Positions 49,468 through 58,345 of a DNA stretch of 64,000 nucleotides are shown one piece after another. Position numbers and translations under genes: made by a program. The notes beneath the pieces were generated by a model that saw nothing but the letters and a program-made list of their open reading frames with translations, ran no database searches and had not been told where the DNA came from. The DNA is from Thiomicrospira sp. WB1 (GTDB lineage Bacteria; Pseudomonadota; Gammaproteobacteria; Thiomicrospirales; Thiomicrospiraceae): positions 124,001 through 188,000 of the forward strand of contig NZ_LQBN01000002.1 in assembly GCF_001507535.1 (NCBI RefSeq). Direction: 5' to 3'. Each line of letters starts with the position of its first letter. Position 1 is the first letter of the stretch.

Positions 49468-50877
49468 GTGAGACAACATCTAAGTAATCTAGACGAACTG
49501 ATGCAGAATGTTCGTAACATTCATGCAAAAGATTTTCTAAATGAGTCTATAGCTTCTTATAGAACGGGGGCATACCGAGCTTCTCTAATTGCAACATGGA
49601 TCGCCGTATGCGTAGATATAATTGAAAAGATACGTGAGTTGAGTCTCAGTGAAGACCCTGCAGCACAAAAATATGAAAATGACTTAAACAAAATCCAACC
49701 AAACGATCCGGCTGCTATGTTAGCTTTTGAGAAAAAACTCTTGAACATTGCCTGCGATGAGTTGCAACTGATTTCAACAATAGAAAAATCACATTTAGAG
49801 CGGCTTAAGGATGACCGAAATATTTGTGCACATCCGACCTTTTCAGATGATGGAAGCCAATTCTCTCCGCCAGCAGAGCTGGCCCTTGCATATATAATAC
49901 AGGCTGCTAATTATTTACTGATCCACCCCCCATTAAAAGGAAAAGTAATCGTTCAGAGATTGTTCGAGTTGATCAATGAGCCATCATTTCCGGATGATGA
50001 GGAAAAAGCTTTCACTCTATTATCGTCGGAAAATAACTTAGGTAGAGTCAAAGAAAGCGGGGTTAGAAATCTTGCAATTATTTTGTGGAAAAGGATATTT
50101 CGAGATGAAGCAGGAGTTTCGCCAGAGTTGTTGAATCGATTATCAGCTTCTTTAGGAGTCATACAACGATTATACCCTGATATTTTTGAAGAGGTCGTAT
50201 CAAACAATTTGGCTAGCATGCTCTCTGAGGCAAGCGATAACCTACTTAAAAGAATCTTTCCTTTCCTGAAGTTAAGAAATGATCTTTGGTCGGAATTACC
50301 ACAATCAGAAAAGGTGCGTGTCGAAGGTCTTATTAATGCAATGAGTCCGGAAGAGATTTTAAGATATCAGGTGGGAGCACTTGTTGAGAAAATCGAAGAC
50401 ATAAGAAGCCAAGTTTTTGAAAAAGTGGATGGTTTAACACATGTTGATCAAGCTAAAATAATTGCGGCCTCTCCTTCAGTGTTTTTTAAGGATAAATCCA
50501 TTTCTCTATTTTCTGAAGCTTTATCTTTTGACTCGGCTGAGTTTAGAGGAAATAGTTTACTACTCCCCATTAGTTCGACATTTAGCGATCATGACTTGAA
50601 GTGTGTTTTTAGTGGAGCCTTAGAGAACGCTGGATCATATGGGATCAACCAAATATTGAATGCTGGTGGAATTGGAGCATTCTTTTCTGCTCTCTATACA
50701 AAGACAAAAGAAGCTCCTCTTAATCATCGAAAACTCTGGGAAGAATTTTGGGAGCGCATCAATGAGAAAGGATATCAATATGACTCTTTGTATGAAAAGC
50801 TTGTTGAAGACCAATATGTCGCACCCAAAGAGGAAAGAGAAGATGAGGACTTGGGAAATGGCGATGCTACTCTTTAA
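49468..50877 (+). CDS. HEPN-domain protein on an AT-rich island (putative defence/toxin-like RNase)
   Basis: A 469-residue protein without a name I can give. The N-terminal 170 residues resemble a HEPN domain: helix SIASYRTGAYRASLIATWIAVC, then the signature R-x4-H as RNICAH (R117 to H122). Active HEPN proteins are metal-independent RNases found in abortive-infection, toxin and CRISPR systems. The C-terminal 300 residues are helical with no motif I recognise and end in an acidic tail. GC content is about 36-38%, much lower than the genes on either side, and the gene stands alone, suggesting horizontal acquisition. The start is a GTG with GAGG five bases upstream. A terminator follows at 50976-51003. 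Confidence 0.65.
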   Translation: MRQHLSNLDELMQNVRNIHAKDFLNESIASYRTGAYRASLIATWIAVCVDIIEKIRELSLSEDPAAQKYENDLNKIQPNDPAAMLAFEKKLLNIACDELQLISTIEKSHLERLKDDRNICAHPTFSDDGSQFSPPAELALAYIIQAANYLLIHPPLKGKVIVQRLFELINEPSFPDDEEKAFTLLSSENNLGRVKESGVRNLAIILWKRIFRDEAGVSPELLNRLSASLGVIQRLYPDIFEEVVSNNLASMLSEASDNLLKRIFPFLKLRNDLWSELPQSEKVRVEGLINAMSPEEILRYQVGALVEKIEDIRSQVFEKVDGLTHVDQAKIIAASPSVFFKDKSISLFSEALSFDSAEFRGNSLLLPISSTFSDHDLKCVFSGALENAGSYGINQILNAGGIGAFFSALYTKTKEAPLNHRKLWEEFWERINEKGYQYDSLYEKLVEDQYVAPKEEREDEDLGNGDATL

Positions 50878-50975: not shown

Positions 50976-51003
50976 AAAACGCGGCTCGATGGCCGCGTTT
51001 TGT
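50976..51003. terminator. Bidirectional terminator between HEPN gene and cytochrome operon
   Basis: Perfect stem AAAACGCGGC/GCCGCGTTTT with loop TCGATG. T runs follow on the plus strand and, through the A run, on the minus strand. It can serve both the HEPN gene and the convergent cytochrome operon. Confidence 0.85.
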
Positions 51004-51011
51004 TTGATTGA

Positions 51012-51110
51012 TCAGGTGGCGACTGTGGTCACCATGCTCAGTAACCAAATCAGAAAGATGGAGCCGAAGGTTAAAATAGCTCCCCAGATGATGGCTTTCA
51101 TTCCGCTCAT
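51012..51110 (-). CDS. 32-residue single-span membrane protein, CydX-like candidate
   Basis: A short ORF: MSGMKAIIWGAILTFGSI, followed by a hydrophobic FLIWLL stretch and a short polar end. It has an excellent ribosome-binding site, GGAGGGG, eight bases before the ATG. The ATG directly follows the TAA of the diheme cytochrome gene. The peptide would form a single membrane helix. Known bd oxidases have 30-50-residue helix subunits (CydX, CydS, CydY) encoded at the operon end. The same position, size and hydrophobicity make this a good candidate for a structural subunit of the adjacent bd-superfamily oxidase. Inference; no sequence identity to CydX is claimed. Confidence 0.7.
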   Translation of the reverse strand: MSGMKAIIWGAILTFGSIFLIWLLSMVTTVAT

Positions 51111-51827
51111 TTAAGACCCCTCCAGATTGGCGTAGTACTTGGCCAGCGCGTCGATTTCGGCGTCGGTCAGTGGTTTGGCCAGTTGCGACATGCCCTGACT
51201 GACGTCGTTGTGACGTTCGCCGTTTTTGTAGGCGTGCATGGTGCGTTTGAAATATTCCGGCACTTGTCCGGCCAGGGCGGGTGTGATGCCATTGCCCTGA
51301 CCGTTCACGCCGTGGCACGAAGAGCAGGGCACCAGCAGCCGCGAGGCGTCGCCTTTGCGTACCAGCTTGTCGGCCATTTTAAACCTTTCGTCCGGCAGCG
51401 TCTGCTCGATTTGCCAGTCGGACAGAGACTGCTCGGCGTAAAACGCGGCCACATCGGCAATTTGCTGATCCGTCATCGCCTGAGCCAGCTTGACCATGAT
51501 GGTGGCCTGACCGTAATTTTCCCAGCGGCGGGCGTCGCGGTAGTCCAGCATCATTTTCATGGTGTATGCCGGTGTCTGTCCGTTCAGCGAACTGAAGTTG
51601 CGCGAAGGGGACTGGCCGTTTTCGCCGTGACAGGACGCGCACATCATTTGGGTGTGCACGCGCTGGCCCCGCTCGACATTGCCTTGTGGCATCTCGTTCA
51701 GTGTCTGGTTGAGCGACTGATGCGTCCAGGGCGCGGCATCAGGTTTTTCCCCGTGGCCGCCGGCCAACGCCAGCGCAGGCACCAGCACACAGGCACTGAT
51801 GGCTGAGTGGATGGATGTTTTTTTCAT
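51111..51827 (-). CDS. diheme cytochrome c (c4-like)
   Basis: Periplasmic diheme electron carrier. It has a signal peptide (first 22 or so residues ending LALA), then two cytochrome c folds, each with a heme motif: CASCHGENGQS and CSSCHGVNGQG. Axial Met candidates lie in TYTMKMML-like and QGMSQLAKPLT segments. I start at the ATG at 51827, nine bases after AAGGG; the frame continues eight codons further to 51851. It follows fccB by 34 bp and belongs to the operon that begins at 56311, probably carrying electrons from flavocytochrome c to the oxidase. Confidence 0.9.
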   Translation of the reverse strand: MKKTSIHSAISACVLVPALALAGGHGEKPDAAPWTHQSLNQTLNEMPQGNVERGQRVHTQMMCASCHGENGQSPSRNFSSLNGQTPAYTMKMMLDYRDARRWENYGQATIMVKLAQAMTDQQIADVAAFYAEQSLSDWQIEQTLPDERFKMADKLVRKGDASRLLVPCSSCHGVNGQGNGITPALAGQVPEYFKRTMHAYKNGERHNDVSQGMSQLAKPLTDAEIDALAKYYANLEGS

Positions 51828-51861
51828 AACCTTTTTCCCTTTTGAATCCATGGTTTCCGCC

Positions 51862-53193
51862 TTAAGAGAACACGTCTTTGACGAATTCGCGGTGCCAGTT
51901 TTTCTGATAGACCGCTTCCAGAATCGGCTGGGCCGGTTTGTCGGTAATCTCTGACACGCCCGCCGAGTCGCCTTTGGGTTGAATCAGGCCGTCGCGGACT
52001 TCATAAATCGCGGCAATGGAAACACCGTAATTTTGTCCGGCCAGGCTGTAGCAGACGTTGGAATAAATCGCTCTGCCCGGGCTTTCGCCTTTGAGTGTAT
52101 CGGCGACGGCTTTGGCGCAGACCTTGGCCTGAGAGTTGGCGGCGTAACCCGATTTGGGCATGGCGTCGGCGATGGTGCTGTCGCCCAGCACATACACCTC
52201 GTCATGGCGCATGGATTCAAAAGTATGGCGATTGATCGGGCACCAGCCGGATTCGTCGGCCAGATCCAGCATTTGCGCCAGTTTACCGGCCCGCTGGTTG
52301 GGGATGATGTTGATCAAGTCCGCCTGAAAATCTTCGACCATGGCCTGTACCTGGTTGGTTTTCGGGTCCAGTCGTGTGACCTGGCCGCCATCGGAACCGG
52401 AAATCCATTCGATCAGACTGTTGTCGCTTCGATAGCCATACAGACGTTCCCACGCCTTTTTGAACGGAATGTCTTTGGTGAAGCGGTCTTTGGGATCAAG
52501 CACGATCACCTTGCCGGTGGGGTTGTGTTTTTTCAGGTATTCAGCAAAGAACGAAATTCGTTCATACGGCCCCGGCGGACAGCGGAAAGGGTTCTGCGGT
52601 GGGGCGACGATGGCGGTGCCGCCCTGAGGCAGGTTTTCCAGTTGCTGTTTCAGCTTGAGGGTTTGCGGCCCGGCTTTGTAGGCGTGCGGATGCGTGGTGT
52701 CGGCCACCTGCTCGTTGAAGCCTTCGATGTTGTCATAGACAAAGTCGATGCCCGGCGAAACCACCAGTTTGTCGTAAGACACGGTCTCGCCTTTCTGGGT
52801 ACGCACGGTTTTTTTGTCAAAGTCCGCGCCCACCACCTTGTCGATGATCACGTTCACATTGTATTTGGAACGAATCGTGTCCAGATTGAACGTCAGTTCA
52901 TCCAGTGTGTGCATGCCCACCAGCACATCGTTGCTGCGCAGGCAGGTAATGTATTCCGGGTATTGCTCGATGATGGTGATTTTGACGTCGGGGTCGGCAA
53001 AGCGCAGGTATTTGGCAAAGGTGGACCCGCCGACGCCACCGCCGAGAATCACCACATGCGCGGCGGATTGCGCAAAGGCTTTGTTGCTGGCCCCGAAAAT
53101 GCCGGTGGCGGCCACGGCTGAGGCGCCAAACACCTTGATCAGGTCGCGGCGAGTGATTTTGCGATCAAACGTTTGTTGTTCCAGTCGACTCAT
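51862..53193 (-). CDS. fccB: flavocytochrome c sulfide dehydrogenase, flavoprotein subunit
   Basis: Oxidises sulfide to sulfur or polysulfide in the periplasm and passes electrons to the cytochrome subunit. The 443 residues start with a Tat signal (KITRRDLIKVFGASA), then the FAD-binding HVVILGGGVGGSTFAKYL. The redox cysteines of the family are present in NPFRCPPGPYE and SGWCPINRHTFE. The C-terminal domain with SNVCYSLAGQNYGVSIAAIY matches FccB/SoxF. Its start overlaps fccA by 4 bp, as expected for a heterodimer. Strong evidence for sulfide use by this organism. Confidence 0.94.
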   Translation of the reverse strand: MSRLEQQTFDRKITRRDLIKVFGASAVAATGIFGASNKAFAQSAAHVVILGGGVGGSTFAKYLRFADPDVKITIIEQYPEYITCLRSNDVLVGMHTLDELTFNLDTIRSKYNVNVIIDKVVGADFDKKTVRTQKGETVSYDKLVVSPGIDFVYDNIEGFNEQVADTTHPHAYKAGPQTLKLKQQLENLPQGGTAIVAPPQNPFRCPPGPYERISFFAEYLKKHNPTGKVIVLDPKDRFTKDIPFKKAWERLYGYRSDNSLIEWISGSDGGQVTRLDPKTNQVQAMVEDFQADLINIIPNQRAGKLAQMLDLADESGWCPINRHTFESMRHDEVYVLGDSTIADAMPKSGYAANSQAKVCAKAVADTLKGESPGRAIYSNVCYSLAGQNYGVSIAAIYEVRDGLIQPKGDSAGVSEITDKPAQPILEAVYQKNWHREFVKDVFS

Positions 53194-53579
53194 TGTTGAC
53201 CTCCCATTGCTTTGTCAGCGGCGTTGGAGGCGTCATAGGCCTCTTCCAGCGTGGTGTCCTGCCAGGGTTTGAACGGTTGTTGCTCAAACCAGATGGCCAT
53301 GGCATGAATTTCTTCGTCGGTAAAGCCACGGGCGACGCGATCCATGATCACGGCGTCGCGTGAGCCGTCCCGATAAGCCAGCATGGCGCGCTCAAAAGTG
53401 TCGGCATCCATGCCGGCCAGAGGCGGCATGGCTTCGGTCAGTGCCTGACCGTTGGTGCCGTGGCAGGGCGCGCATTGTTGGGCCATGGCTTCGCCTGAGG
53501 CCATGGGTTGCGGTGCGGCCTGAGCACCTGCCGTGATCAAGCTCAGGCACAAGGCGGAAATCGAAATCGTTCGGTTCAT
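53190..53579 (-). CDS. fccA: cytochrome c subunit of flavocytochrome c (monoheme FccA-like)
   Basis: Small periplasmic class I cytochrome c with a signal peptide of about 20 residues ending AGAQA and one heme motif, CAPCHGTNGQA. The distal segment SRDAVIMDRVARGFTDEEI would supply the axial Met. About 129 residues, so it corresponds to the monoheme type of FccA rather than the diheme type. AAAGGAG supports either of two adjacent ATGs (53582 or 53579); spacing favours 53579. It overlaps fccB by 4 bp. Confidence 0.88.
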   Translation of the reverse strand: MNRTISISALCLSLITAGAQAAPQPMASGEAMAQQCAPCHGTNGQALTEAMPPLAGMDADTFERAMLAYRDGSRDAVIMDRVARGFTDEEIHAMAIWFEQQPFKPWQDTTLEEAYDASNAADKAMGGQQ

Positions 53580-53591
53580 CATATAACTCCT

Positions 53592-54839
53592 TTATTGCGC
53601 CCAGACCCAGAAGCCGACGGCAAAGAATTGCACCATCCACAGCAAAAGAATCCAGATGGCGGCGGTGCCCATGCGGTCCACGGTGGCGCTGGGGGTGTAC
53701 ACGCCATTGGTCTGGCCGACTTTCCAGGCCACGGTGAGGTAATAGCTCAGCACCGCACCGCCGAGCACCGCGAAGGTGATAAAGAAGAGCGCGGTGGAAT
53801 ACCAGTCCATCACCACCTTATAGTCCATGAAGTCGTAGCCGAAAAAGCCTTCCAGAATGCCGTAGCGCAGCATCTCACGGCTGATGGCAACCACCAAACC
53901 GGCGACCACGGCCATGGGCAAGGCCATGTAGCTGCATAAAGGGTGGTTGTTTTTCAGGCGAACCTTGGCCCAGAGCGCGTAGGCGATCAGTGCCACGCCT
54001 CCGGCAATGCCCCAGAAAGAGGTACCGAAGTCGCCAGCGGTTTCGGGCAGGGTCATCATCCAGCCGATGTAAAAGGCCAGCGCGATGGCGGAACCGACGG
54101 AAATCCATTTTTTGCCCACGTCTGCAGCAAAGTTGAGGTAGTCCATGTCGGCGTCTTCACGCACCATCTTGAAACGGCGGTAGGTCACCATCATGGCTCC
54201 GGCCACCGGAATCGCCATGCTGATAAAGAAACCGAAGCGCCAGAGGTTGCTGGCATGCAGTTTGGAGCCGGAGTAATCCATCTGGCCGTTGGGCATATAC
54301 CAGCTCTGCCAGAGTTCCGGGTGCAGCATCTGCTTGGTCAGGTTGTGCATGATGTAACCGACCACCAGCAGCAGAATCACACTCAGGATCATTGACCAGC
54401 GCGCTTTGGGGGCGGCTTCGACGCCTTTTTGCTTGCTGTTCTGGAAATAGTAGAAGTACATGGACCAATAGGCCAGAATCAGAATCAGGATAAAGGCGAT
54501 GACCCAGTCGGCTGAAAGCACGTTGGAGGTGTACCAGTGCGGGTCATAAATCACCTGCACAAACAGCAGGGGCGCGACCCCGATCACGATGGCGACCGAC
54601 ACGGACACCTTAGCAACTTCCAGCATCGCCGCACTCAGACGTCGCCAGTGTGGGTCGCTGCTGAATGCGCCCGCGATGGTGACCCCGGCGGTGCCCAGCA
54701 TTAGCTGCACAAAAAAGATGTGCAGGGCAAAAGTCAGGACTCCCAATGCCATAAAGACAATGGGATAGGTCGGCACCCCGGCGGGATTGCGCAGGGCATA
54801 CATCATGTCTGTGATGTGTTGAACGTTTCCAGCATCCAT
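53592..54839 (-). CDS. second membrane subunit of a cytochrome bd-superfamily (OR-C-like) oxidase
   Basis: A 415-residue polytopic protein with about nine to ten spans. The first contains FMALGVLTFALHIFFVQLMLG, with a buried His in the position of a CydA heme ligand. Further landmarks are GVAPLLFVQVIYDPHWYTSN and MHNLTKQMLHPELW. No heme c motif is present. Its ATG overlaps the stop of the upstream subunit by one base, so the pair is certainly co-translated. I read it as the partner subunit in an oxidase of the OR-C/CydAA' part of the bd superfamily. The assignment is by resemblance and context, not by search. Confidence 0.65.
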   Translation of the reverse strand: MDAGNVQHITDMMYALRNPAGVPTYPIVFMALGVLTFALHIFFVQLMLGTAGVTIAGAFSSDPHWRRLSAAMLEVAKVSVSVAIVIGVAPLLFVQVIYDPHWYTSNVLSADWVIAFILILILAYWSMYFYYFQNSKQKGVEAAPKARWSMILSVILLLVVGYIMHNLTKQMLHPELWQSWYMPNGQMDYSGSKLHASNLWRFGFFISMAIPVAGAMMVTYRRFKMVREDADMDYLNFAADVGKKWISVGSAIALAFYIGWMMTLPETAGDFGTSFWGIAGGVALIAYALWAKVRLKNNHPLCSYMALPMAVVAGLVVAISREMLRYGILEGFFGYDFMDYKVVMDWYSTALFFITFAVLGGAVLSYYLTVAWKVGQTNGVYTPSATVDRMGTAAIWILLLWMVQFFAVGFWVWAQ

Positions 54840-56311
54840 TAGTGCGCCTCCTGTGAGGTTGTGGAGTTCAGGCTGATGACCGCATTGGCGGAATCGCTGG
54901 ATTCCTTAGCCAGCGCTTTTTGCTTGCGGTCGGCCACTTCTTTGTCAATCGCTGCGGTGATGGCGGTCTGTCCGCCTTCGTTATTGAGCAACAAGTAGGA
55001 CGCCAGCGCGGTGACCTCGTCTTCGGTCATTGGCATTTTGGGCATGTAGGCGATGGTGCCTGGCTCAATCACGCCACGGATGTAGTCTTCCATGCGTGCC
55101 TGTGTCATGCCGTCTGGGAAGTAACGATGCAGCGGACGAATCCCGGTCTGGCTGGGCGAGTGGCAGTTGGAGCAATAGGTCATGGTGATGAACTCACCCG
55201 CCTGAATGCGGTTGCCTTCGTTCACCTCGCGCAGATGCTCAGGCGTGAACGGGTGCGCTTTCAGCAGACCCACTTTTTCCAGCGTGGGGATTTGCGATTG
55301 GATGTCCATGCCGGGCACGTCGCGGCCGATCACCTGGTTGGAATAAACATACTGACCGGCCACCCAAGGCTTGCGCATGGATTCGCGCGCGGTTTCTTCC
55401 GGCCACAGACCCGCCACCAGAATGATGATGGTCATGGCCCCGGCAAAGCCCTGCACCAGCAGACGCGGTTGGATCATGGTGATGATGAAATACGCGAGCG
55501 TCCCGGCCAGTACCGCCATGATGCTGGGTTCAAAGTAGTCCGGCAGACGGTTTTCCATGACCAGCAGCGCCTGTTCGGGCACGGAGCTCAGATACCACTG
55601 GAACAGAGCCGAACCGATCAGGGTGCTGATGATGCCCAGCCAACCCAGTTTGCGCGTCATTTCTTTTTTAAACGTTGCGTCTTTGATGGTGGAGATCACA
55701 ATGCCCCCGACCACGGCGGTCATGGTGAACATAAACGCCACGCGCATGCCCATCTGCACAAAGGTATTGGTGCCGTAAAAGCCATTGAGGTAACCACCTT
55801 CGGCAAACCACTGTTCTTTGCCGGGCAACATCATGAATGACAGAATGCCGATGATGATCACCATGGTCGCCAGCGAAGAAATCCCGAAGATCAGCGAGAT
55901 TTTCATGTGGGTTTTTTTATCGACCTTGCCCACCAGATAAACAATCATATAGACGCCGACCACTTCGATCACGAAAAAGACCCATTCGGTGGCCCATTTC
56001 CAGACGAATGAGTGGATCAATGCGCCGATGCCATTGGGACTGCCCACGGTGGTCGAGTACCAGATGCCGGGCCCGGTGATGGAGCCGGCAACATAGGTGA
56101 ACACCAGCAGAAACAGGCCGTAGCGTTTGACGAAGTCCAGATAGTCCGGGCGGTCTTCCTTGTAGGAGCGATAGGAAAGATAGGCAAACAGCATGGCGGC
56201 CCCGACCGAGGTGTGAGAGGCCAGCACATGGAAGGTCGCGATGATGCCGATCACCCAGCCGGAGCCCAGATTGGGCTCAAACCAGGTGGGGTAAAGGCTG
56301 ATCAGTTCCAT
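54839..56311 (-). CDS. cytochrome bd-superfamily subunit I with C-terminal heme c domain
   Basis: A 490-residue protein in two parts. Residues 1-340 or so form about nine spans with CydA-like landmarks: the first-span His (ATFHVLASHTSVGAAMLF), an acidic pair in ATEWVFFVIEVVGVYM, and RKPWVAGQYVYSN resembling the GRQPW loop. Residues about 370-450 form a cytochrome c domain with heme motif TYCSNCHSP and the distal MPKMPMTEDEV. The tail is charged. This matches the c-heme-bearing OR-C branch of the bd oxygen reductases, which could take electrons from cytochrome c rather than quinol. AAGGA precedes the ATG. First gene of the operon with fccAB. Confidence 0.75.
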   Translation of the reverse strand: MELISLYPTWFEPNLGSGWVIGIIATFHVLASHTSVGAAMLFAYLSYRSYKEDRPDYLDFVKRYGLFLLVFTYVAGSITGPGIWYSTTVGSPNGIGALIHSFVWKWATEWVFFVIEVVGVYMIVYLVGKVDKKTHMKISLIFGISSLATMVIIIGILSFMMLPGKEQWFAEGGYLNGFYGTNTFVQMGMRVAFMFTMTAVVGGIVISTIKDATFKKEMTRKLGWLGIISTLIGSALFQWYLSSVPEQALLVMENRLPDYFEPSIMAVLAGTLAYFIITMIQPRLLVQGFAGAMTIIILVAGLWPEETARESMRKPWVAGQYVYSNQVIGRDVPGMDIQSQIPTLEKVGLLKAHPFTPEHLREVNEGNRIQAGEFITMTYCSNCHSPSQTGIRPLHRYFPDGMTQARMEDYIRGVIEPGTIAYMPKMPMTEDEVTALASYLLLNNEGGQTAITAAIDKEVADRKQKALAKESSDSANAVISLNSTTSQEAH

Positions 56312-56534: not shown

Positions 56535-57242
56535 ATGAAAAACGCCGCAACACCGTCTTATGATGCGACCGCTTTGGGGGCCAGGGTTCAACCTGCGCCA
56601 CATGCCAAGCATGCGCCATCGTTTTTTGCCAACCTCGATTGGCCGACGTCGCAAACAAAAGTGCTGGATTCGGCCCTGGTGTTGTTTGATCGGCAGGGGT
56701 ATTTCAATACGTCCATCGCCGATCTGGTGGCGCATTCCGGGGTCAGTTCCGGCTCGATCTATCACGCGTTTGGCGACAAGGAAACCATTGCGCGAAGATT
56801 GATGGAAGCGTTGCTGGCGCAGTTGGAACAGGCGCAACAGGCCATTATCCGGCGCCATGACACCGGCTGGGAGCGCTTCAGCCATCTCGTCGACTGGATG
56901 ATGCAGGAAGCGATCACGCACCCGCACGCCATGCGTTTTATTTTGCAGGCGCGCCATCAGGAATTTTTGCCCGAGCAACCGCCTGTCTGTGCTCAGCAGC
57001 CGTTTGTGACGCTCAGAGAGGTGTTGGCGCAGGCACAGAAAGCCGATGAGATTGCGTCAATGCCGACCATGCAGGCGGCGGCCCTGGCCTATGGTCCGGT
57101 GTTGCGCTGGATACAGTTTTATTTGGATGGATTGTTACCAGGCCTGGTTAAAAATGATTGGGAAAACCTGGCGCACCAGGCCTGGCAGAATTTGGTTAAC
57201 AGCAACCCGTGCCCCTGGCACGAGACAAAGGAGCAAGCATGA
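56535..57242 (+). CDS. TetR/AcrR family transcriptional regulator
   Basis: A 235-residue regulator with an HTH at about 45-90 (QTKVLDSALVLFDRQGY, TSIADLVAHSGVSSGSIYHAFGDKE) and a helical ligand domain. The first 35 residues are an unusual Ala/Pro-rich extension. No ribosome-binding site precedes the ATG, and if TAGAAT at 56514 is the -10 the transcript would be nearly leaderless. It is divergent from the oxidase/fcc operon and overlaps the MBL gene by 4 bp. It probably controls itself and perhaps the sulfide operon. Two copies of the 12-bp palindrome family lie in its last 110 bases. Confidence 0.88.
   Translation: MKNAATPSYDATALGARVQPAPHAKHAPSFFANLDWPTSQTKVLDSALVLFDRQGYFNTSIADLVAHSGVSSGSIYHAFGDKETIARRLMEALLAQLEQAQQAIIRRHDTGWERFSHLVDWMMQEAITHPHAMRFILQARHQEFLPEQPPVCAQQPFVTLREVLAQAQKADEIASMPTMQAAALAYGPVLRWIQFYLDGLLPGLVKNDWENLAHQAWQNLVNSNPCPWHETKEQA
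57137..57148. repeat. ACCAGGCCTGGT palindrome inside tetR
   Basis: Exact 12-mer within TTGTT-ACCAGGCCTGGT-TAAAAA. Read as Leu-Pro-Gly-Leu-Val, a different frame from the Gln-Ala-Trp copies. Confidence 0.9.
57175..57186. repeat. ACCAGGCCTGGT palindrome, one mismatch, second copy in tetR
   Basis: ACCAGGCCTGGC (11 of 12), 38 bp after the exact copy. It is read as His-Gln-Ala-Trp, so the same gene holds the repeat in two reading frames. Confidence 0.8.
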
Positions 57243-58345
57243 CATTTTCAAAAACACTCGTGGCCACATCGGTTGCAACGATGATGGCGGTCGCCTCAGC
57301 GGCACAGGCCAAAGATCCTTATGTGGCCGGGTTTGAGCGTTATGCTCAGGAAATGCAGTCGGCGAATGCCGCCACGGCGTCCACGTTTGATACCTATGCC
57401 AAGGATGTGGCGGGCACCCTGAAAAAAGCCGGTTACATCGGGCCGACGCTGCCACTGCCCGAGCCGGTCAAGGTGACGGACGGGGTCTATACGGTGGTGG
57501 GCAGTCTGATCTGGCACAACCCCACCAACTACGGCCTTAATAACAACCTGACTTGGATGGAATTCGAAGACGGGGTCTTTGTGTTCAACGCCGGGCCCAA
57601 TCCGGCGGTGGCGGGCTCGTTTCATCGCATGATCAAGGAACACACCAACAAGCCTGTGAAATGGGTGGCGGTGGAAAACTCTCAGGGCCATGCTTATCTG
57701 GGCAGCAGCTACTGGGTGGATGTGGGGGTGAAAAACCTTTATTCACACGATGTGGCCAACCAGGATTTTGATCAGGGCTTTGAGCACATCAAAGAACACT
57801 GGGGCACCCGCGTCGGGCATGAAATCACCGATTCGGCGCGCAATGTGTCGGACCAGTTCACCGAATTCAGTGACAAGATGGTGATCGATGTCGGCGGCGG
57901 TGAAACCGTGGAGCTGCTCAACTTCGGGCCGGGGCACACGCCCGGTTCCACGCTGGTGTATGTGCCGTCGCGCAACCTGCTGTTAACCGGGGATGTGGGC
58001 TACAACAGCCGTATGCTGGCGCTGTTTTCCTACACCAATACCCAGTATTGGGTGGAGACATTCCGCACGATGATGGACTATGTGCCCGATGATGTGCTGG
58101 TGATCCCGGGGCATGGCGGGCCGACCGATCTGGCAACGGTGAAAACCGACACGCATGATTATCTGGTGTACATGCAAAAAGAGGTGCAGAAGGTGATCGA
58201 TCAGGGCGGCGACATCAGTGACGCCGAAGAAATCGATCAGTCCATGTATTCGGATCGCTCTGTGTACGAGCAGACCTATCAGAACAATGCCCGTCATATT
58301 TACAAAGAAATGACCGGTGGAGATCTGGGAGAAAATTTTGAATAA
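57239..58345 (+). CDS. periplasmic MBL-fold protein with altered first metal motif
   Basis: A 368-residue protein with a signal peptide (first 24 or so residues, ending SAAQA) and a metallo-beta-lactamase fold. The second-half metal residues are normal: FGPGHTPGSTLVY, LLLTGDVGYN and VIPGHGGPTDL. The usual HxHxDH motif is replaced by ENSQGHAYLGSSYW, so only part of the dinuclear site could form. This resembles a divergent group of exported MBL proteins in sulfur oxidisers and methylotrophs. AAAGGAG six bases upstream supports the ATG at 57239, which overlaps the tetR stop. Function unknown; sulfur or quinone-linked chemistry is possible from context only. Confidence 0.8.
   Translation: MTFSKTLVATSVATMMAVASAAQAKDPYVAGFERYAQEMQSANAATASTFDTYAKDVAGTLKKAGYIGPTLPLPEPVKVTDGVYTVVGSLIWHNPTNYGLNNNLTWMEFEDGVFVFNAGPNPAVAGSFHRMIKEHTNKPVKWVAVENSQGHAYLGSSYWVDVGVKNLYSHDVANQDFDQGFEHIKEHWGTRVGHEITDSARNVSDQFTEFSDKMVIDVGGGETVELLNFGPGHTPGSTLVYVPSRNLLLTGDVGYNSRMLALFSYTNTQYWVETFRTMMDYVPDDVLVIPGHGGPTDLATVKTDTHDYLVYMQKEVQKVIDQGGDISDAEEIDQSMYSDRSVYEQTYQNNARHIYKEMTGGDLGENFE

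Follow-up and report, generated by a model that had tools for sequence, protein, structure and literature searches.

Murali et al. (2021) are said to have set out an OR-C family of the cytochrome bd superfamily, the hallmark of which is a heme c at the C-terminus of CydA, and what supplies electrons to the non-quinol branches of this superfamily is an open question in the field. Here, we describe a six-gene operon from Thiomicrospira sp. WB1, located in a 64,000-nt stretch of contig NZ_LQBN01000002.1 (the window), in which a bd-like oxidase is encoded together with a flavocytochrome c sulfide dehydrogenase (FCSD; FccAB). Judged by the features ascribed to OR-C, the window oxidase is like these enzymes in the CydA core, the C-terminal heme c and the absence of the quinol-binding loop, and differs in that its operon has a built-in, repeatedly exchanged donor module (fccA, fccB and a diheme cytochrome c gene). 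The OR-N CydAA' of Nitrospirota and Nitrospinota resembles the window oxidase in having two CydA-type subunits and a presumed use of cytochrome c; the parts of the two reports considered here treat it in Nitrospinota and Nitrospirales genomes, as a putative bd-like oxidase not characterised experimentally (PMC10839748, PMC12342949) and with a function that one of them calls unconfirmed (PMC10839748), whereas the linked partner in the window is a sulfide dehydrogenase. With the described FccAB systems (1fcd, 3vrd and 5n1t) the window shares the FccB domains and the residues C84, C205, C381 and E211, its monoheme FccA being closest to the 102-residue 5n1t_B, but it differs from them in that FccAB sits in an oxidase operon. 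Finally, the window shares with E. coli CydAB the fold, the His of the first transmembrane span (TM1), the TM3 Glu pair and, putatively, the TM8 E-x-x-R, but it is without the Q-loop, has a non-conserved residue paired with H186, has an added heme c and has a second subunit that is structurally nearer to CydA than to CydB. The operon thus combines known kinds, an OR-C-like oxidase and an FCSD, in a new variant, and is not a new kind.

We consider it probable, though far from certain, that the operon encodes a sulfide-oxidising respiratory branch for which a quinone step is not needed and which ends in bd-type O2 reduction; electron flow from sulfide to O2 is likely. The six tightly packed minus-strand genes fill positions 56311-51012 of the window (list of open reading frames (ORFs) and sequence) and are given here in the order of transcription.

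cydAc, 54839..56311, minus strand: 490 amino acids (aa); bd-superfamily subunit I with a C-terminal heme c domain; CSNCH codons at 55160-55174.
Second membrane subunit (CydB slot), 53592..54839, minus strand: 415 aa; CydA'-like; TM1 His40 and E322-x-x-R325; without a heme c motif.
fccA, 53190..53582, minus strand: 130 aa; monoheme cytochrome subunit of FCSD; CAPCH at 53460-53474.
fccB, 51862..53193, minus strand: 443 aa; flavin adenine dinucleotide (FAD) sulfide dehydrogenase subunit; RR motif in the signal region; C84, C205/C381 and E211.
cyc2, 51111..51851, minus strand: 246 aa; diheme c4-like cytochrome; CASCH at 51627-51641 and CSSCH at 51312-51326.
Small peptide, 51012..51110, minus strand: 32 aa, hydrophobic, single-span; possibly a CydX-like small subunit.

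A first-pass annotation, made from the sequence alone, had described six genes in tight order on this strand, with overlaps of 1 bp between the oxidase genes and 4 bp between fccA and fccB, and both the coordinates and the overlaps (TAATG and ATGA, respectively) bear this out. All four heme motifs that it named were located, at residue 380 of cydAc (CSNCH), residue 37 of fccA (CAPCH) and residues 71 (CASCH) and 176 (CSSCH) of cyc2. Its title speaks of an operon "fusing" the oxidase with flavocytochrome c, but the genes are separate and co-oriented.

Both membrane proteins are predicted to carry the cytochrome bd fold. The AlphaFold2 models had a mean predicted local distance difference test score of 84 and a predicted template modelling score of 0.81 for cydAc, and of 90 and 0.89, respectively, for the second subunit. 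The cydAc model aligned with E. coli CydA 6rx4_A (Z 28.2, root-mean-square deviation 3.1, 313 residues aligned), and that of the second subunit with the subunit I chain 7ose_A (Z 26.9, root-mean-square deviation 4.1, 338 residues aligned), so that the CydA fold of the bd superfamily was found in both predicted models and the earlier assignment of both proteins to the superfamily is upheld on these models. The next fold after the bd oxidases was alternative complex III, at a Z of about 18 for both subunits. The single subunit II chain among the matches listed, 8b4o_B, gave a Z of 21.6 with the second subunit, which on its model is structurally nearer to CydA than to CydB. The profiles of the two subunits are mutually related (hhalign E 1.7e-8, probability 95%), and therefore the pair looks like CydAA', as had been suggested.

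The sequences themselves are far from the canonical families. cydAc, the sole PF01654 match in the host genome (2.28 Mb, 6 contigs), scored 17.4 bits over residues 19-232, under the gathering cut-off of 26.2 that a qOR member is expected to exceed; its residues 369-440 matched Cytochrome_CBB3 of Pfam with 24 bits, also under the cut-off, and residues 365-449 of the model match the fold of cytochromes c. The second subunit matched no Pfam family above cut-off, and a PDB sequence search with the membrane profiles returned nothing but heme c matches for cydAc and no match for the second subunit. Two other origins were tried and rejected. Derivation of the membrane subunits from NrfD/PsrC or alternative complex III would correspond to Z values of 15-18, compared with 27-28 for bd oxidases. 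An ordinary CydB as the second subunit was rejected because the best listed chain was subunit I in 9 of 10 bd entries, where PDB chains were assigned to subunit I or II by chain length and the Foldseek matches mix both.

The residues expected of a bd active site are retained in subunit I. In an hhalign comparison of cydAc with canonical CydA (E 1.9e-4, probability 48%; canonical profile built from 15 proteins), H28 falls on H19, E109 on E99 and E116 on E107, and the ends of the structure alignment (cydAc 12-328 on 7ose_A 3-463) imply that E310 and R313 fall on E445 and R448, so that counterparts of E. coli H19, E99 and E107 and, by implication, E445 and R448 are all in place. By alignment, cydAc thus keeps the TM1 His and the two TM3 Glu of CydA, and by inference from the model the TM8 E-x-x-R would be kept as well; the motif RESMRKPW parallels the canonical E-x-G-R-Q-P-W. 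Across 71 aligned cydAc relatives, no change is seen at H28, E109, E116, E310, R313, M423 or the heme c CxxCH, M423 being a likely axial ligand of the heme c. The RKPW loop and the conserved first-span His that the first-pass annotation had noticed are among these constant positions (H28 and R313-K314-P315, the latter likewise invariant in the 71 relatives). In 72 sequences of the second subunit, H40 and R325 never vary and E322 hardly does. The protein sets used here excluded loci whose matched stretch is interrupted by a stop, truncated loci and loci outside a length range.

What differs from canonical CydA is the route by which electrons could enter. In the AlphaFold2 model, the sixth and seventh long helices of cydAc (212-243 and 260-280) stand only 16 residues apart, a gap that we take to be the Q-loop position of canonical CydA; the Q-loop of qOR with its quinol site (K252 and E257, invariant in the canonical CydA set, n=15) is thus absent from cydAc. 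Of the two heme b558 ligands, H186 pairs with a non-conserved cydAc residue beside the invariant R190, and M393 lies in a region outside the alignment. Exactly one CxxCH is present in all 98 distinct untruncated cydAc sequences. Because the heme c is kept and the Q-loop is gone, cydAc is, as modelled, a member of the bd superfamily that receives its electrons via heme c and not from quinol at the usual site. It is probably an OR-C member, a label that derives from the C-terminal heme c and the features ascribed to that family.

On the donor side, FccAB is, by sequence, a genuine FCSD, since the FccB domains, the catalytic residues and the FccA cytochrome subunit were all found. FccB has the domains PF21706 (9.8e-41) and PF09242 (6.2e-15) above cut-off (FCSD_central and FCSD-flav_bind) and matches 1fcd_A at 8.6e-119. 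Alignment with 1fcd places C84 as the FAD-linking Cys, C205/C381 as the redox pair, in agreement with the redox cysteines claimed earlier, and E211 as the active-site Glu, roles which follow the statements made for another FccB in the part of the source considered (PMC3504083). FccA gave phmmer matches to 5n1t_B (4e-14) and 1fcd_C (6.7e-14) and has Cytochrom_C of Pfam above cut-off, and Cyc2 matches Cytochrom_C (1.6e-19) and the cytochrome c4 8uf3_A (9.2e-22). The FAD-linking Cys (TC..SN), retained in the window FccB, is replaced by an RPYGS-type sequence in 47 of 86 FccB rows, 83 of which come from oxidase-linked operons (rows without the Cys include L055, L101, L108, L112, L131, L134, L144 and L150), which suggests that many oxidase-linked FccB bind FAD non-covalently.

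The 32-aa peptide is conserved behind cyc2 in the host's family. A small-ORF scan found a hydrophobic short ORF behind 28 of 95 cyc2 genes, which is the family's peptide in 27 cases and another sequence in L140, compared with 0 of 95 after single-base shuffles; the scan missed family loci in which tblastn detects the peptide (L046, L072, L080 and others), and it yields nothing firm for other families.

In the mechanism that we infer, with regard to each electron-transfer step, O2 as the substrate, the physical complex and the physiological reason alike, periplasmic FccAB would oxidise sulfide by means of FAD and the redox Cys pair and pass the electrons to the FccA heme, from which they would move to the diheme c4-like Cyc2 and then to the heme c domain of CydAc. 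From this heme c they would reach the bd-type active site of CydAc, where O2 would be reduced to water, and the oxidase would also comprise the other CydA-like subunit together with the small peptide. A bd-type end was probably favoured because bd enzymes resist sulfide and heme-copper oxidases are inhibited by it; according to the part of the study considered, the E. coli bd oxidases are insensitive to sulfide up to 58 uM, whereas bo3 is half inhibited at 1.1 uM (PMC4815019). The conserved operon names a testable donor for one non-quinol bd branch, and it would also allow sulfur oxidisers to use sulfide for respiration under conditions that inhibit heme-copper oxidases.

The linkage of oxidase and fccAB in one operon is conserved among the nearest relatives. 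cydAc is present in 42 of the 62 genomes of the host's family, and fccB lies within 4.5 kb of 43 of the 49 full cydAc copies (FccB was counted at E up to 1e-60, and one 33-residue cydAc fragment, in G017, was excluded); the six unlinked copies are five of a paralogue and one on a 3.9-kb contig. The paralogues (L058, L059, L060, L070 and L071) are about 50% identical to the window's oxidase, and a lone small monoheme cytochrome c was called behind four of the five (L058, L059, L060 and L070). A second survey, of named loci, took the 80 best of 441 confirmed relatives and overlaps the family survey in its genomes; it found fccB beside cydAc in 69 of 79 loci, and in 52 of 52 where the flanks are complete. 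Eight of the ten loci without fccB are on contigs that end before the expected downstream fccB position; L155 and L159 have no fccB despite more than 7 kb downstream in view. The possibility that homologues are never linked to fccAB, which the first-pass annotation had raised, is excluded by this gene-neighbourhood survey, and the arrangement is more general than the view of a single window allowed. A cydAc match turned up in 11 of 369 genomes sampled from the class (that of G237 in the heme c region only), and among the seven true matches outside the family, fccAB stands alongside in G118, G206, G328 and G395. In the phylum sample, 43 of 398 genomes matched profile A2, beyond the heme c domain only the host's own, G499 and G598; fccB was not seen in the 10.9 and 3.8 kb examined around the latter two oxidases, respectively.

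The nearest named oxidase relative among the matches listed is that of Hydrogenovibrio halophilus DSM 15072 (94% identical), and the operon occurs in Thiomicrorhabdus, Thiothrix, Thiomonas, Thiobacillus, Halothiobacillus, Guyparkeria, Thioalkalivibrio, Thiohalocapsa, Hydrogenophaga, Rhodoferax and Tepidimonas. Many of the carriers belong to genera known for growth on reduced sulfur. The presence of the gene set in many genera argues that the six-gene arrangement is more than chance. The fcc genes precede cydAc in 7 of the 79 named loci (L110, L132, L140, L144, L148, L149 and L150), which are titled Halothiobacillus, Halothiobacillaceae or Guyparkeria, and the window's gene order is kept in L099 and L118, titled Halothiobacillus or Halothiobacillaceae. 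A single inherited accident as the origin of the linkage was rejected in view of two gene orders and several exchanges, with the caveat that near relatives are not independent and that the G328 locus, which has the second order, is closely related to the Guyparkeria locus.

From sequence comparison, the fcc and oxidase halves appear to have changed partners on several occasions. The FccB tree has two separate, well-supported clades within the host's family, and FccB type requires eight changes on the oxidase tree, at least six of which are forced by starred branches; label shuffles gave a mean of 10.5 changes and values as low as 8 in 36 (type II) and 46 (type I) of 500, so that FccB types are only weakly clustered on the oxidase tree (quick trees of 86 FccB rows and of 50 CydA rows, 33 of them typed, with Shimodaira-Hasegawa-like approximate likelihood ratio test support only). 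Thiomicrorhabdus heinhorstiae HH1 (L083, the same place as L045, 1456-13500) has two operons in tandem, in which the CydAc and CydB proteins are identical (DNA 98.7%, in a block that stops at the end of cydB), while identities are 43% for FccA, 46% for FccB, 53% for Cyc2 and 93% for the small peptide. Thus, the two operons pair one oxidase with different sulfide-oxidising middle parts, and the peptide follows the oxidase and not cyc2. In G194 (L067, 3867-5684, minus strand), the second subunit is extended by a stretch that holds two heme c motifs (both CAGCH; the fusion protein has 606 aa), which ties a diheme-type cytochrome to the oxidase.

It is possible, and we propose it tentatively, that FccAB, the c4-type cytochrome, the heme c-bearing CydAA' oxidase and the peptide form one dedicated, sulfide-tolerant and quinone-independent sulfide:O2 complex, in which the oxidase stays constant and the sulfide half can be swapped as a cassette. 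Such a complex may be widespread in sulfur bacteria and have gone unnoticed, since the automatic annotation of relatives names the oxidase parts "cytochrome c" and "hypothetical protein", as in three of four plasmid records, the fourth having "c-type cytochrome" and "cytochrome C". A 2019 survey of Thioalkalivibrio, in the part considered, compared the surroundings of fccAB in a small set with four other sulfur oxidisers among its members and reports that no genes are conserved there (PMC6382920), and the part considered of a 2019 genome paper on Guyparkeria sp. SCN-R1 lists Fcc and, as oxidases, only cbb3 and ba3 (PMC6504805); G. hydrothermalis R3 (L144), a different strain, carries the operon. 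For Hydrogenovibrio thermophilus S5, a bd-type oxidase (as named there) and Fcc are given, and neither for H. crunogenus XCL-2, with no link drawn in the part considered (PMC5733100). Searches of open-licence PMC papers found no description of an operon of fcc with a bd-like oxidase; the main superfamily paper may mention it.

The most serious rival, although an unlikely one, is that FccAB and Cyc2 feed a general cytochrome c pool, shared by a COX1-type oxidase and the bd-like oxidase and served partly via bc1, and that the genes share an operon only so that they are expressed together when conditions are sulfidic and low in oxygen. Several observations favour it or weigh against a dedicated branch. 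The host genome encodes the cytochrome c1 of bc1 and one COX1-type oxidase, and cytochrome c4 chains are also present in the bc1-cbb3 entries 8smr and 8snh. Oxidase copies without fccAB, namely the fcc-less paralogues of five family genomes, those of G194, G196 and G308 (three of the seven class genomes outside the family) and four plasmid relatives (28-46% identity) with no fccAB among the annotated genes within 6 kb, indicate that the oxidase does not need sulfide as a donor; behind the oxidase, the Methylosinus and Agrobacterium plasmids each have an ATP-binding protein and a response regulator, in Methylosinus along with a c-type cytochrome, and the two Thermus plasmids have neither. Conversely, 82 of 125 FccB matches in the host's family lie away from cydAc and 43 beside it, and fcc cassettes occur without the oxidase, as fccA-fccB-cyc2 (L273, L274), fccB-cyc2 (L271, L272, L276) or fccA-fccB alone (L275, L277, L278), so that FccAB of such types can work with another acceptor. 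Two further points concern the oxidase itself: the second subunit matched the canonical CydA profile at an hhalign E of 0.0054 (probability 7%), and the best CydD match in the host genome, 320 bits against a cut-off of 435, is ambiguous, the CydDC assembly transporter being one that goes with canonical bd. Nevertheless, the nearly invariant linkage among near relatives, the recurrent swapping of fcc types within one slot and, in one genome, a second subunit fused to a diheme cytochrome region speak against the shared pool. The earlier claim of a sulfide-to-oxygen chain is supported in part, by the bd fold, the CydAA'-like pair, the lack of a canonical Q-loop, the genuine FCSD and the conserved operon, but not in its directness and exclusivity, since the cassettes without oxidase, the fcc-less paralogues and the host's bc1 and COX1-type oxidase leave room for a shared cytochrome c pool.

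Compatible with the respiratory branch, but rather improbable as the principal role, is a detoxification module, i.e. a low-yield sink that removes sulfide and O2 and shields the other oxidase instead of serving as the main energy-conserving route. The divergent TetR-type regulator gene at 56535 would fit such a role, against which stands that many carrier genera are known to grow on reduced sulfur, and sequence does not separate the two roles; the tolerance of bd oxidases to sulfide, in the part of the study considered (PMC4815019), also accords with detoxification. Reduction of nitric oxide or another small acceptor instead of O2 is very improbable, given that the active-site His/Glu/Arg set of O2-reducing CydA is retained, even though no biochemistry of this heme c-bearing bd-like subfamily is known to us.

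Elsewhere in the host genome, there are two lone FccB-like proteins (L196 5312-6634 and L197 5270-6562), one of them near a NapC/NirT-type tetraheme cytochrome, and a search for sulfide:quinone oxidoreductase returned two weak FccB relatives with scores under the NCBIfam cut-offs. A 469-aa protein at 49468-50877 on the plus strand has no Pfam match at E 0.01. Two further features flank the operon.

Terminator-like hairpin 3' of the operon, 50976..51001, strand not assigned: 11-pair stem.
SoxH-like metallo-beta-lactamase-fold protein, 57209-58345, plus strand: divergent from the operon.

The hairpin is one of 14 such sites in the region, compared with an average of 7.2 in shuffles. Weak relatives of the SoxH-like protein (24-25%) are found near the operon, on the opposite strand, in three of the named loci (L118, L120 and L125).

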